From Streptomyces aquilus (GTDB lineage Bacteria; Actinomycetota; Actinomycetes; Streptomycetales; Streptomycetaceae): 64,000 bases of DNA. The stretch is taken from the NCBI RefSeq assembly GCF_003955715.1, contig NZ_CP034463.1, positions 5,704,001 to 5,768,000 of the forward strand, in the 5' to 3' direction. The position numbers and the translations under genes were made by a program. Shown here piece after piece: positions 26,735 to 30,899 of this stretch (positions are counted from its first letter, which is position 1; every line of letters starts with the position of its first letter). Below the pieces are notes generated by a model. It ran no database searches. It saw only the letters and a list, made by a program, of their open reading frames with translations, and was not told where the DNA came from.

Positions 26735-27039
26735 GAGGGGACGTTAGATGCGGTGCGTAACGCGGCGATCACCGGCGGATTTCCGGCAGCTCACGCGGAG
26801 AAACGGGTTCCGCGGGGCGTGCGGCGGGCGCGGACGGGGACCATCAGCTTGTTGCAGAGCGGCGGCCGGAGGCCGGACGATTGTGGGGTAAATCAGTGGT
26901 TTCCCTCGGTCACACCGGGACGAGCCGTGTTGCGGAGCTGGTCTGGTCCGCGCATAGTTGCGGAGCCGTAGGGGTGTGTCCGTGCCACGAGCGCGCGCAC
27001 GCCGGGCACATGAGGCGGGAACCGGGGGTGGGCTGGGCG
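26735..27039. other. 305-bp divergent intergenic region
   Basis: This separates the ATP-grasp operon (minus) from the first LuxR-type gene (plus), so promoters of both should lie here. The stretch around 26875-26900 (ATTGTGGGGTAAATCAGTGG) is the least GC-rich. No confident promoter pair, inverted repeat or small gene was seen. Confidence 0.4.
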
Positions 27040-28110
27040 ATGGCCGGGCACGCGGCGGACGAGCATCCACACGGTGCTGACCGGCTGTGCGAGGCCGGGG
27101 ATCGCGTGTATTCCCGGGCCGTACGGCGGGGCCGGGTGCCGCGCGAGGACGCGGAGCCGGTGCCGTGCCTGCTGGAGCTGGCCCTGCTGCACCCCGACCC
27201 GGACGACATGGACTGGCTGGTCCCCACCTCCCCGCAGGAGGTCATGACCCGCCTGCTGCGCGGGGTCTACGACGAGGTCAGCGCGAGTCAGCGGCGGATG
27301 GGCTCGGCGGTGGCGGCGTTCGAGTGGTACGCGGGCCTTGACTCGCAGCTGGCGTCGTCGGCGATGGCGGACCGCTCCGCGATCCGGGTCCTCGACGGGC
27401 TGTCCCGCATCCAGGCGGCCATGGACGAGGCGACGCAGGCGTGCACGACGGAGGTGCTGACGGTCCAGCCCGGCGGCATCCGTCCCGAGCACGAACTGAC
27501 CGAGGGCCTGCACCGGGCGCTGGCGCTGCGGGGGCGGGGCGTGCGCATGCGCGACCTCTACACGCACGTGGCGCGGCACGGCCAGGGCCTGCTCAACTAC
27601 CTGGAACTGATGGGCGACGCGGTCCAGGCCCGCACCCTCGACGAGGTCATCGACCGGCTGATCCTCTTCGACCGCACGGTGGCGTTCATCCCGGCGAACG
27701 CGGACCGCACGCTGGCGCTGGAGCTGCGGCACCCGGCGCTGGTGGGCTTCCTGGCGACGGTCTTCGAACGGCTGTGGCGGCTGGCGATCCCGCTGACCGC
27801 CCCGCTGCCCGACACCGGCATCGAGGGCATCTCCAACCGGGAGCAGTCCATCGCGGCGCTGCTCGCGGAGGGGCACCAGGACGCGGTGATCGCGGAACGG
27901 CTCGGCATAAGCGTGCGTACCTGCCGGGCCCACATCGCCCGCCTGTCGGAGACGCTGGGCGCGGCGAGCCGCACGCAACTCGGGGTGCGTATCGCGCAGG
28001 TGGGGCTGGACGGTCCGCCGCGGCCCACGGGTGGCGGGGGTGCCGGGGGAGTGGGCAGTGTCGGGGGCGCCCTCACGCTCCCTGATCAAGAATCCCGGAG
28101 CGTCCGATGA
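27040..28110 (+). CDS. LuxR-type transcriptional regulator, copy 1 of 3
   Basis: 356 residues from ATG 27040 (MAGHAADEHPHGADRLCEAG), with a G-rich stretch upstream; ATG 27010 is possible. The N-terminal part carries a block shared with the two neighbours (VYSRAVRRGRVPREDAEPVPCLLELALLHPDPDDMDWL). The central part (RMRDLYTH, DRTVAFIPAN, LALELRHPAL) resembles the phospholipase-D-like ligand domain of TrmB-type regulators. The C-terminal helix-turn-helix is AERLGISVRTCRAHIARL. There is no receiver domain, so it probably senses a ligand or partner. Its end overlaps the convergent copy 2 by 38 bp. A Gly/Pro-rich tail follows the DNA-binding domain. Confidence 0.85.
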   Translation: MAGHAADEHPHGADRLCEAGDRVYSRAVRRGRVPREDAEPVPCLLELALLHPDPDDMDWLVPTSPQEVMTRLLRGVYDEVSASQRRMGSAVAAFEWYAGLDSQLASSAMADRSAIRVLDGLSRIQAAMDEATQACTTEVLTVQPGGIRPEHELTEGLHRALALRGRGVRMRDLYTHVARHGQGLLNYLELMGDAVQARTLDEVIDRLILFDRTVAFIPANADRTLALELRHPALVGFLATVFERLWRLAIPLTAPLPDTGIEGISNREQSIAALLAEGHQDAVIAERLGISVRTCRAHIARLSETLGAASRTQLGVRIAQVGLDGPPRPTGGGGAGGVGSVGGALTLPDQESRSVR

Positions 28111-29050
28111 GGTAGCCGAGTTGGGCGCGGCTTTCGCTGCCCAGCGTCGCGGCGAGTTTGGCGATGTGCTCGCGGGCGGTGCGCACGTTCATGCCGAGCC
28201 GGTCGGCGATGACGGCGTCGGTGTGGCCCTCGACGAGGAGGGCGGCGATGGTGCGCTGGCGGGCGGTGACGCCGTCGCGGGAGGGCGGCTGGACGGCCCG
28301 GTGCATGGGCGTGGCCAGGTGCCACAGGCGGTCGAAGGTGACGGCGAAGTGGCCGATCAGGACCGGGTGGCGGATCTCCAGGGCGAGGGTGCGGCTCTCG
28401 TTGGCCGGGATGAAGGCGACGGTGTCGTCGATCACGACGAGGCGTTCGGTGACCTGGTCGAGGGTGCGTGCCTCGGCGTTCCCGCGCAGCTGTTCGTAGC
28501 GGGCCGTCACGGCGGGGGAGTGCCGCTGGGTGTGCTGGTAGAGGGTGCGGATGCGGCCGCCGCGGTCGAGCAGGGCCTGGTCGCGGTCCAGGCTCCTGGC
28601 CAGTCGGCCGGCGGGGTTGTGGCCGTCGTAGGGCTGGACGGCGAGCAGTTCGCGGGAGGCTTCGGCCATCGCGGCGGCGATCGCCTCGTTGATCCGGTCG
28701 ATGCCGCTGATGACGCTGAGCGCCGGGGTGTCCGCCGATGCCGTGCGCGGTCCCTCGATGCGCAGGAGCGGTTCGAACGTCTCGGCCAGCCGTTGCTCGC
28801 GCAGCCGTTCACCGGCGACGCGGTCCGCCGAGGCACGCAGCAGCCGCTGGAGCGCGACGGCCGGCGCGACGGGCTCCAGCCGGCCGGGATTCCCCACGGC
28901 CGGGTGCAGCAGCCCGAACTCGACGAGACACGGGGCGGCCTCGGCGGCGGCGCCGTCCACCTGGCCCTCCCGCAGGGCGCGTGCGTAGAGCTCCGTTCCC
29001 GCCGCGCACAGCTCCTCCACACCGTGCTCCGGGTGCGGCGCCCGCGTCAC
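28073..29050 (-). CDS. LuxR-type transcriptional regulator, copy 2 of 3
   Basis: 325 residues from GTG 29050, in a GTGA overlap with the stop of copy 3, so translation is coupled. It has the same architecture as its neighbours: LYARALREGQVDGAAAEAAPCLVEFGLLHP, the central IRTLYQHTQ, DDTVAFIPANESRTLALEIRHPVL, and the C-terminal helix-turn-helix ADRLGMNVRTAREHIAKLAATLG. It is most similar to copy 3. The tail ends SGILDQGA. Confidence 0.87.
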   Translation of the reverse strand: MTRAPHPEHGVEELCAAGTELYARALREGQVDGAAAEAAPCLVEFGLLHPAVGNPGRLEPVAPAVALQRLLRASADRVAGERLREQRLAETFEPLLRIEGPRTASADTPALSVISGIDRINEAIAAAMAEASRELLAVQPYDGHNPAGRLARSLDRDQALLDRGGRIRTLYQHTQRHSPAVTARYEQLRGNAEARTLDQVTERLVVIDDTVAFIPANESRTLALEIRHPVLIGHFAVTFDRLWHLATPMHRAVQPPSRDGVTARQRTIAALLVEGHTDAVIADRLGMNVRTAREHIAKLAATLGSESRAQLGYLIGRSGILDQGA

Positions 29051-30066
29051 TCGCCCACTCCCTCCTGCTTCAGGATGCCCGACTCCGCGATGAGGTAGCC
29101 GAGTTGGGCCCGGCTGCCGCTGCCCAGCGCCGAGGCGAGCTTGGCGATGTGGGCCCGGCAGGTGCGGACGTTCATCCCGAGGCGCCGCGCGATCGCCTCG
29201 TCGACGTGGCCCTCGACGAGGAGCTTGGCGATGGAGTGCTGGATGTCGGTGATGCCGTCGGGGGCGGTCTCGTAGGGGGCGCCGGCGCTCAGCGGCACCG
29301 CGCGGCCCCACATGAACTCGAAGACCTTGATCAGATAGCGGACGAGCCCCGGGTGACGGAGTTCGAGGGCGACCTCCCCGTCGTCCCGCGTCGGGATGAA
29401 GGCCACGGTCTCGTCGCAGATGATCAGCCGCTCCACGAGTTCGTCGATGGTGCGGTACTCGACCTTGCCGTCGGTGAACTGGGCGACGTACGCCAGGGTT
29501 TCCGGGCTGTAGCGGGCCGGGTGCTGGTAGAGGGTGCGGATGCGGCAGCCCCGCTCGACGAGCGGCCGGTCGCGTTCCAGCCCCTGGGAGAGGGTGTGTT
29601 CCAGTCGGCGGCGCATCGGCTGGACGGTCAGCATCTCGTTCTGGCACTGGGCGGTGGCCAGATCGAGTGCCGCGTTGATGCGGTCGAGGCCCTCGAGCAC
29701 CGTGATCGAGTGAGTGGTTCCCGTCGACTGGGCGCTGAGCGTCATGAACGGCTCGAAAGCTTCGGCGAGCTCGATCGACTGCCGGCGCCGCTGGGTGATC
29801 TCGTCCTCGATCGGATTGAGCCGCTGCGCCAGCGCGATCGACGGGGGCACCGGGCGCAGCCAGTTCGCGTCGTCAGGGTCGGGATGGAGGAGGGCGAACT
29901 CCATCAGGCACGGGGCAGGCTCGACGTCCGCACGGGCGATACGACCAGTGCGAAGAGCGTTCCCATAGAGACGGCGACCCTCCTCGCACAGTTCGGTCAC
30001 CGCGTGAGGATGTGTCTGCTTAGTCTCATTTATTGCCAAATCTCCACCCCCCAGGGTCCTGAACAT
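29047..30066 (-). CDS. LuxR-type transcriptional regulator, copy 3 of 3, divergent from DSTW peptide
   Basis: 339 residues from ATG 30066. A TTG at about 30039, behind GGTGGAG, is an alternative (LAINETKQTHPH). Shared blocks are LYGNALRTGRIARADVEPAPCLMEFALLHPDPDD, IRTLYQHPARYSPET, CDETVAFIPTRDD and the helix-turn-helix ARRLGMNVRTCRAHIAKLASALG. Only 85 bp separate it from the divergent DSTW-repeat peptide gene, making it the leading candidate to control that operon. The first codons (GCA ATA AAT) are unusually AT-rich for this chromosome. Confidence 0.88.
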   Translation of the reverse strand: MFRTLGGGDLAINETKQTHPHAVTELCEEGRRLYGNALRTGRIARADVEPAPCLMEFALLHPDPDDANWLRPVPPSIALAQRLNPIEDEITQRRRQSIELAEAFEPFMTLSAQSTGTTHSITVLEGLDRINAALDLATAQCQNEMLTVQPMRRRLEHTLSQGLERDRPLVERGCRIRTLYQHPARYSPETLAYVAQFTDGKVEYRTIDELVERLIICDETVAFIPTRDDGEVALELRHPGLVRYLIKVFEFMWGRAVPLSAGAPYETAPDGITDIQHSIAKLLVEGHVDEAIARRLGMNVRTCRAHIAKLASALGSGSRAQLGYLIAESGILKQEGVGE

Positions 30067-30151
30067 GCAGGAACATGATGCACCGATTGTGTGGCCATGA
30101 CGTGCCGGAATGGGCCATCGTCGTATTCAGCGGGGGAGAGGTGACCTTCAA

Positions 30152-30394
30152 ATGAGGACGAAGCCGACTATGCATAAGAGAATGCTTCGCTCGGTGCTTG
30201 CCGCCGCCTTCTCCACCGTTGTGGCCATCGGGGCGCTGAGCGGCCTTGCGGGGACGAAGGGCGATGTTCAGGCGGACAGCACCTGGCGTCAGAAGATCGT
30301 GGCCGCGGACAGTACATGGGTCGTCGTGGCGGCTGAGAAGCCGCTCGACAGCACATGGCAGACGGATGACAGCACCTGGGCCGTGGAGTCATGA
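30152..30394 (+). CDS. small secreted peptide with four DSTW repeats
   Basis: 80 residues from ATG 30152, with GGGGGAGAGG upstream; ATG 30170 (MHKRML) is an alternative. A basic start and a hydrophobic core (MLRSVLAAAFSTVVAIGALSGLAG) form a signal peptide with likely cleavage after VQA. The predicted mature part of 39 residues contains DSTW four times: ADSTWRQ, ADSTWVVV, LDSTWQT and DDSTWAVES. There is no Cys. It resembles no chaplin, rodlin, lanthipeptide or known hormone I recognise. Its TGA overlaps the ATG of the Rieske-like gene (ATGA), so the two are translationally coupled. The role is unknown; surface peptide, signal or modified peptide are all conjecture. Confidence 0.8.
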   Translation: MRTKPTMHKRMLRSVLAAAFSTVVAIGALSGLAGTKGDVQADSTWRQKIVAADSTWVVVAAEKPLDSTWQTDDSTWAVES

Positions 30395-30726
30395 CCACTC
30401 CCCCCGACGACCGCTCCTTCCGTCGTGAAATGGCCACCGCCTATCGCTCCGGCTGGCACTTCATCGACCTGGTCACCGCGATCCCCCACTCCGGTGACTC
30501 GTTGATGGTGACCGTCTTCGGCGAGCCGGTCGTCGTCACCCGCGACGACGACGAGGACGTCCGGGCGTACCGGTGTCTGCGGCGGCCTCGGGGGGCGCCG
30601 CAGCCTGTGCGGTGTGCCATTCGGTACGGAATGATCTTTGTGAACCTCGACCAACGAGACCATCGGCTGGTGGAACCGGAATCCCCCACCCCACGGACCA
30701 TCTCAGCCACCCCCCGCAGTGCCTGA
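30391..30726 (+). CDS. miniature Rieske-oxygenase-like protein lacking cluster ligands
   Basis: 111 residues from ATG 30391. RSGWHFIDLVTAIPHSGDSLMV and FGEPVVVTRDDDEDVRAYRC resemble the start of a ring-hydroxylating oxygenase alpha subunit (the WYxVG...GDxxxxxxxGEPVVVxRDxDGxVRAxxN pattern). RYGMIFVNLDQ resembles its GLIFVNLD strand. The C-X-H...C-X2-H region that should hold the 2Fe-2S cluster is replaced by CLRRPRGAPQPVRC, with no His, and the catalytic half is absent. It looks like a cut-down Rieske fold reused for binding. Being coupled to the DSTW peptide, it may bind, chaperone or modify it with a partner (inference). Confidence 0.78.
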   Translation: MTTPPDDRSFRREMATAYRSGWHFIDLVTAIPHSGDSLMVTVFGEPVVVTRDDDEDVRAYRCLRRPRGAPQPVRCAIRYGMIFVNLDQRDHRLVEPESPTPRTISATPRSA

Positions 30727-30770
30727 CGCGATTCCCCCGTCGTAACAGATCGCTCAGGCGCTTCCCCCCG

Positions 30771-30816
30771 CAGCGGCGTCACCGTGACCTGAACACGGTG
30801 ACGCCGCTGCAGTTTT
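30771..30816 (+). terminator. terminator after the DSTW-peptide operon
   Basis: Perfect 17-bp arms (GCAGCGGCGTCACCGTG and complement) surround a 7-nt loop, and AGTTTT follows. This delimits the two-gene peptide operon and faces the convergent PPOX gene. Confidence 0.92.
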
Positions 30817-30899
30817 GAGGGACATTTCCGGGTATCGGCCCTTTCTGGCCGTTGGCTGAAAATCGCCAGCGACGCCTGCGGTGCTCGCGGGGCCGCCGC

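Follow-up and report, generated by a model that had tools for sequence, protein, structure and literature searches.

A conserved exported D-x-x-W peptide and a divergently encoded TrmB/LuxR-type regulator as a candidate pheromone-receptor pair in Streptomyces

Background

The known signals of Streptomyces are mostly small diffusible molecules, for example gamma-butyrolactones. Peptide pheromones that act on cytosolic receptors are typical of the Firmicutes, whose RRNPP systems comprise Rap-Phr, PlcR-PapR, NprR-NprX and PrgX. TrmB is known as a sensor of sugars and carries its helix-turn-helix (HTH) domain at the N-terminus. The locus described here lies in a window of 64,000 nucleotides from Streptomyces aquilus (the whole stretch of DNA that was analysed) and combines a small exported repeat peptide, a short Rieske-like protein (RLP) and a regulator with a TrmB-like sensor domain (Table 1).

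Results

Organization of the locus

Table 1. Features of the locus; positions are counted from the first nucleotide of the window.
Feature	Position	Strand	Basis
Paralogous TrmB/LuxR regulator, no peptide detected; equivalents of residues 145/166 Val/Ala	27037..28008	+	
Paralogous TrmB/LuxR regulator, no peptide detected; equivalents of residues 145/166 Leu/Asp	28073..29047	-	
Proposed receptor, 339 aa, TrmB/PLD-like sensor and LuxR/GerE HTH	29047..30066	-	Profiles, model, covariation
Codon for Asp166 of the receptor, retained where motif position 2 is Ser/Thr	29569..29571	-	Covariation
Codon for Met145 of the receptor, which covaries with motif position 2	29632..29634	-	Covariation, replicated in another family
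AGGAACATGATGC, near-invariant candidate operator next to the receptor start codon, in the divergent promoter region	30069..30081	+	
Exported precursor, 80 aa, four DSTW copies	30152..30394	+	ORF reading; orthologues in other loci
RLP, 111 aa, Rieske fold without cluster ligands; frame overlaps the precursor stop (ATGA)	30391..30726	+	
Intrinsic terminator, 17-bp stem, 7-nt loop, T-run	30770..30817	+	Fold and sequence

A sequence-only reading of this stretch had described a secreted 80-residue protein with four DSTW copies, an ATGA overlap and a strong terminator, and all of this was confirmed by the inspection of the reading frames and of the fold. The precursor has a basic N-terminus followed by a hydrophobic stretch, as judged by composition, and export at all other loci was likewise judged from composition alone. 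Its DSTW codons (30275-30286, 30308-30319, 30347-30358 and 30368-30379) show only synonymous differences among the four copies. The overlap joins the precursor and RLP frames on the forward strand, and the stem of the terminator (30770-30786/30794-30810) is perfectly paired over 17 bp and followed by a T-run, with a fold of -58.1 kcal/mol (z -7.1) for positions 30720-30830. An Rfam search gave no match at the locus. A PNPOx-type gene and an 865-aa ORF, which we take to be clpB, lie on the far side of the precursor/RLP pair.

The regulator stands divergent to this pair. The model of its sensor domain (about residues 116-261) matches TrmB and PLD folds, as is characteristic of a TrmB-type effector domain, and the C-terminal HTH (about residues 268-335) is of the LuxR-type GerE class, with profile matches to DevR and NarL and fold matches to VqmA and CviR. 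The Pfam GerE profile stays under its cut-off on this regulator (E 0.006) and exceeds it on a paralogue at 26881-28110 (E 5e-10). The fold model has a pTM of 0.54, and residues 1-17 are unreliable. That regulators flank the unit had been seen in the sequence-only reading, which missed the role of the divergent one: by its covariation with the peptide motif, the divergent regulator is the central partner.

The paralogous regulators carry Val/Ala at the equivalents of residues 145/166 in 71 of 135 cases (73 loci); these 71 are all encoded on the plus strand and occur irrespective of the motif at the locus. Such peptide-less paralogues may be tuned to other pherotypes. At L054 (8677-10050), about 5 kb from the main locus, another paralogue of the regulator stands divergent to an exported ORF that ends in DDSAWS. 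A second, distant member of the regulator family is encoded in the genome of the window itself (L381:1-4501, G000:C1:5540500-5545000), next to an exported ORF that ends in VTDPGWS, and the two probably form a second peptide system.

In the divergent promoter region, 12 of the 13 positions of AGGAACATGATGC are conserved to at least 97% and one to at least 90% in 204 aligned distinct sequences, and the exact element occurs in one copy per genome in each of eight genomes. A wide regulon defined by this element is not supported: the number of one-mismatch sites was near that of a reversed-pattern control in seven of the eight genomes (for example, 14 versus 12 in G000). Unlike the other seven, G153 had 18 one-mismatch copies versus 2 in the control.

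The Rieske-like protein

The sequence-only reading had also described the 111-residue protein as similar to the start of a Rieske oxygenase alpha subunit, lacking the cluster ligands and the catalytic half, and as to the ligands a comparison by eye shows it to be right in substance. The Pfam Rieske profile (E 0.023, residues 22-61) stays under its cut-off and the NCBIfam glycine betaine monooxygenase profile (E 2e-7, residues 6-69) far under it, and a Foldseek comparison (E 3e-4, TMq about 0.5) finds the model (pLDDT 70) similar to alpha subunits of Rieske oxygenases. Compared by eye with a real oxygenase (L149), the region of the CxxH loop is deleted and CxH is not kept. RLP has no His ligands and hence no CxH...CxxH pattern of a [2Fe-2S] cluster, and it ends after the Rieske-like part at 111 aa without the catalytic non-haem iron domain. 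A retained cluster held by two cysteines was rejected, since the remaining cysteines vary (L145-L148 lack C62, and L132 and L141 lack C75). A role of RLP as receptor or modifying enzyme was rejected as well, given that it does not track the motif and misses the cluster ligands.

RLP matches were found in 257 of 295 genomes of the genus. In 14 of these 257 the best E-value lies above 1e-20; they represent four diverged RLPs (L145-L148) and ten matches in longer frames of 414-866 aa, and the three of these ten that were inspected (L149-L151) carry oxygenase-type ligands. Among 61 relatives, 33 had a match, all from the same genus except for a weak one in G053 (E 6e-4). Outside the genus no match was detected in 23 of 24 genomes, the remaining one having a weak match; the 23 include G039, G040, G044, G050 and G051, where DxxW peptides adjoin regulators. 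The scan of named genomes returned at least 538 related stretches, of which the best 80 were kept. Far from being a frameshift relic, as the sequence-only reading had thought conceivable, the 111-aa gene is intact and strongly conserved, with an overlap with the peptide stop in part of the loci only. The C-terminal TPRSA is nearly invariant and the residues just before it are variable. The second RLP copy of G023 (L159) is 65% identical (tblastn), lies about 93 kb from a contig end and has no adjacent peptide.

Variation of the precursor in the genus

RLP, repeat peptide and divergent regulator occur together in 243 of 244 RLP loci examined in the genus, with L159 as the lone exception where no peptide was seen. 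The resulting set consists of L001-L126, L132-L148 and L160-L259, leaving out L127-L131 and L149-L159, and the locus sets from the two genome sources overlap in species. All 243 loci show an exported ORF with an xxxW motif that ends near the RLP start, together with the regulator; the peptide caller used here favoured W-containing ORFs, and with a caller free of this criterion the motif was still present in 126 of 126 loci. A restriction of the DSTW frame to close strains, which the sequence-only reading had left open, is not what was found: on the sequence level, conservation of the peptide across the genus is evident.

The motif itself varies widely. Over the 243 loci 39 motif strings were observed, one of them an artefact, which leaves about 38 tetrapeptide types including DSTW, DVGW, NSSW and EPTW. 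In two cases the coding was adjusted: AGVW of L162 is a signal-peptide artefact and was recoded as NTSW, and a tie in L250 was coded as DLGW. A precursor carries between 1 and 18 tetrapeptides, the commonest motif being single in 76 loci, double in 90 and at its maximum in L144, the 18 DTGW copies of which look like a recent tandem expansion. A second W string is present in 14 of the 243 precursors, some of these being artefacts. The diverged loci L145-L148 have precursors ending in QDPAWD or QDPTWG. The signal part, V/MRTKPTM..RMLRSVLVAAFS in most precursors, is conserved and the spacers are not, and the first motif copy usually follows A-x-A or V-x-A.

Among the copies within 155 distinct precursors with at least two W motifs, the motif codons differ by 752 synonymous versus 54 nonsynonymous changes, and the spacer codons of the same precursors by 469 versus 1689, where long arrays weigh more because all pairs of copies were counted. 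Nonsynonymous motif differences of any kind are confined to 12 of the 155. Strong purifying selection on the copies is evident from these counts, and the sequence-only reading, which had made its case depend on such selection, is borne out in this respect.

Exchange of regulator and peptide as a cassette

Sliding identity between the window and L080 (DSAW) is 77-89% over regulator and peptide, and between the window and L039 (DVGW) 68-79%; in both comparisons RLP is 94-98% and clpB 92-100% identical. The RLP protein of L039 is even 100% identical to that of the window, and identity to this locus also dips to 82-88% just past RLP. Loci with related motifs (L021, L059 and L061; DSTW/DSSW) have regulators 86-98% identical to that of the window. 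The block of the two paralogous regulators is variable between relatives, too (62-90%). A divergent regulator/peptide block next to a conserved RLP is as expected from an exchange of pherotypes.

The same pattern holds for the 77 loci with clpB, in which 54 pairs share at least 95% nucleotide identity in this gene and 36 of the 54 differ in the motif. The nucleotide identity of the regulator in these pairs is 94-97% when the motif is the same and about 80% when it differs, whereas that of RLP is 96-99% in either case. Since RLP overlaps the peptide gene, it serves as a linkage control. Among 216 distinct loci (out of 237 with a full-length regulator), the motif is shared by the nearest regulator neighbour in 73% and by the nearest RLP neighbour in 34%. 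By these identities, close relatives exchange regulator and peptide as a cassette that does not include RLP.

Covariation of motif position 2 with residue 145

Mutual information for motif position 2 ranks regulator residue 145 first (nMI 0.82, background 0.15) and residue 166 next (0.73, background 0.23), and for position 3 the top regulator columns are 154 and 152. Ser at position 2 is combined with Met145 in 124 of 124 cases, Thr with Val in 51 and Leu in 2 of 53, Pro with Leu (16/16), Val with Val (10/10), Leu with Val in 6 and Ile in 1 of 7, Ile with Val (5/5) and Phe with Ala (1/1). Asp166 accompanies Ser or Thr at position 2 in 177 of 177 cases and other residues in 0 of 39.

In a branch test on a regulator tree that was built without the pocket columns, 20 of 27 position-2 switches share a branch with a switch at residue 145, and seven of each occur alone (hypergeometric 6e-23); the values are 2e-4 for the next regulator column and 3e-3 for the RLP column that scores best, and for position 3 the best columns are 162 (3e-8) and 152 (2e-5), all of these p-values being descriptive only because parsimony branches are not independent trials. 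According to the predicted secondary structure, from which the pocket geometry was read, residue 145 lies on a strand (144-149), followed by a loop (151-155) and a helix (156-171) on which residues 162 and 166 are one turn apart. The pairings would make steric and polar sense, with the small Ser opposite Met, larger side chains opposite smaller ones and the hydroxyl opposite Asp.

Replication in distant relatives

Homologues of the regulator are present in 110 of 118 genomes of genus g43 in another family (f28), where the regulators are only about 33% identical. A secreted DxxW peptide was detected at 70 of 77 loci of this genus, in all cases downstream and convergent, when all four sides were scanned, a layout chosen after peptides had been seen downstream there; a scan of the upstream side alone gave three matches at the 77 loci, all of them spurious-looking. 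Many of these precursors carry the motif directly or one residue after a signal-peptidase-like A-x-A, an indication that the mature N-terminus lies at the Asp or beside it.

The residue code recurs in this second family. Ser at position 2 goes with Met145 in 17 of 19 cases and non-Ser with non-Met in 50 of 51 (Fisher 4e-13 for the Ser/Met association), Thr goes with non-Met in 41 of 42, and Asp166 is found with Ser/Thr in 59 of 61, other residues at position 2 being combined with Glu or Ala (9/9). The exceptions at residue 145 are L436 and L453, with DSGW and Leu, and L478, with DTSW and Met. In a two-state test, eight of nine switches between Ser and non-Ser coincide with switches between Met and non-Met, the top rank among 926 residue splits; when the full set of residue states was used, residue 145 was not among the best columns of the branch test and surfaced only after this recoding. 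The partner residues of position 3 were not replicated in this genus.

In other genera, regulators about 27-40% identical to that of the window are in part accompanied by small exported ORFs of the same signature, for example DSAWG (L291), DQGWN (L297), DLSWG (L306), NISWD (L307), DSLWD (L309) and DTGWD (L302). A convincing DxxW peptide was seen at only about 28 of 104 distant regulator loci, partly picked by eye, and one of these 28 (L350) was not recovered in the later four-sided scan of g43. As a control for chance, secreted ORFs ending in DxxW were counted: a single one occurred in 1.13 Mb of strand sequence, beside the L054 regulator paralogue, and the same ending rule retrieved 7 of 30 distant loci (L291, L293, L297, L306, L307, L309 and L310).

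The deep comparison comprised 22 rows from the 104 loci after spurious-looking ones had been dropped (e.g. L300, L308, L376, L378, L386, L389 and L393), with L309 and L402 representing the same regulator/peptide pair. Outside g43, Met145 is found in three of five rows with Ser at position 2 and in none of 14 rows without it, a near relative (L290) being uncounted. L309 and L387 are exceptions to the code, and the DPGWS pair from the genome of the window has Ile/Thr and not Leu/Val. At this deep distance the residue code is weaker.

Discussion

A pheromone model and its alternatives

Taken from sequence comparisons, the explanation which fits best, and which we regard as quite probable, is a short DxxW pheromone that is read by the adjacent regulator and exists in different pherotypes. 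For processing, import, direct binding, the direction of regulation and the physiological output we infer the following course. The signal peptide would export the precursor, signal peptidase would free the first copy, and other proteases would release further peptides with a D-x-x-W core, probably of 4-6 residues. An oligopeptide importer may bring the peptide back into the cell, where it would bind to the TrmB/PLD-like pocket of the divergently encoded regulator. In this pocket, residues 145 and 166 would form the packing surface for position 2, and the loop and helix at 152-162 probably that for position 3. This regulator is proposed to control the shared divergent promoter, and the system would therefore be autoregulated. 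Peptide and receptor would diversify together and be exchanged as a cassette, giving rise to species- or strain-specific pherotypes. For RLP, our guess is a co-transcribed, cytosolic accessory outside the specificity cassette.

Strong diversification between species and cassette exchange are also expected at toxin/immunity loci, so that the xxxW peptides might act like bacteriocins against competitors, with the regulator sensing them or conferring immunity and an arms race behind the polymorphism. We hold such self-recognition or antagonism to be improbable, as what covaries with the peptide is a DNA-binding regulator with a fold for ligand sensing instead of a membrane or enzyme immunity protein, the conserved core comprises only four residues and is often present in more than one copy, and the near-invariant promoter element suggests signalling. 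The multi-core layout and the descent of RLP from an oxygenase fold would suit a RiPP precursor in which the DxxW units are cores of a modified product, with RLP as the partner that binds the substrate and production under the control of the regulator. RiPP precursors do not usually have a Sec-type signal, inspection of the window revealed no modifying enzyme adjacent to the unit, and RLP, which does not follow the motif and has neither cluster ligands nor a catalytic half, had no match in five genomes of other genera with DxxW peptides beside the regulator; we give this reading little credence, and the signal itself may still be modified. The options raised in the sequence-only reading fare differently: a secreted signal is supported by the evidence, and a modified peptide recognised by a Rieske-like domain is not, RLP neither tracking the motif nor giving a match in those five genomes.

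The precursor is exported and adjacent genes tend to be inherited together, and a secreted structural or surface peptide of development with a merely neighbouring, linked regulator would have both features. However, most of the covariation falls on a single strand and the residues next to it in the pocket, residue 145 comes first in two families and the overlapping RLP shows no such covariation, which makes this reading very improbable. Going beyond the single locus, we lean towards an as yet undescribed, class-wide actinobacterial family of D-x-x-W pheromones and receptors with a 145/166 code, dozens of cassette-exchanged pherotypes in Streptomyces and peptide-less receptors at the locus that eavesdrop on other pherotypes.

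If true, Streptomyces and other actinobacteria would share a widespread chemical language, with a peptide code in most sampled Streptomyces genomes and in another actinobacterial family. Development and antibiotic production could then become controllable by synthetic peptides. Position 2 and residue 145 would offer a direct and cheap handle on ligand recognition, for which the natural pherotypes are a ready panel.

Comparison with known systems

The proposed system resembles the RRNPP systems in that a small exported precursor adjoins the receptor gene (here in 243 of 243 loci), the core is short and sometimes repeated, the receptor is expected in the cytosol and the specificity is pherotype-like. 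It differs in the receptor, which combines a TrmB/PLD-like sensor with a LuxR HTH and does not have the TPR fold, in the D-x-x-W core, in the actinobacterial hosts and in RLP as an extra partner. With ComQXPA and agr it shares a signal and a receptor that diverge together as an exchangeable cassette in conserved flanks; those systems use membrane histidine kinases and modified or cyclised signals, whereas here a one-component regulator is present and no modifying enzyme was seen. RLP corresponds to the N-terminal part of the Rieske domain fold of oxygenase alpha subunits such as GbcA and naphthalene dioxygenase, but without the ligands, the second cluster loop and the catalytic domain. The sensor is of the same type of fold, by structure, as in TrmB and TrmBL2 (PDB 2f5t, 3qph, 5box); in contrast to these, the HTH is a C-terminal GerE domain and the ligand would be a peptide.
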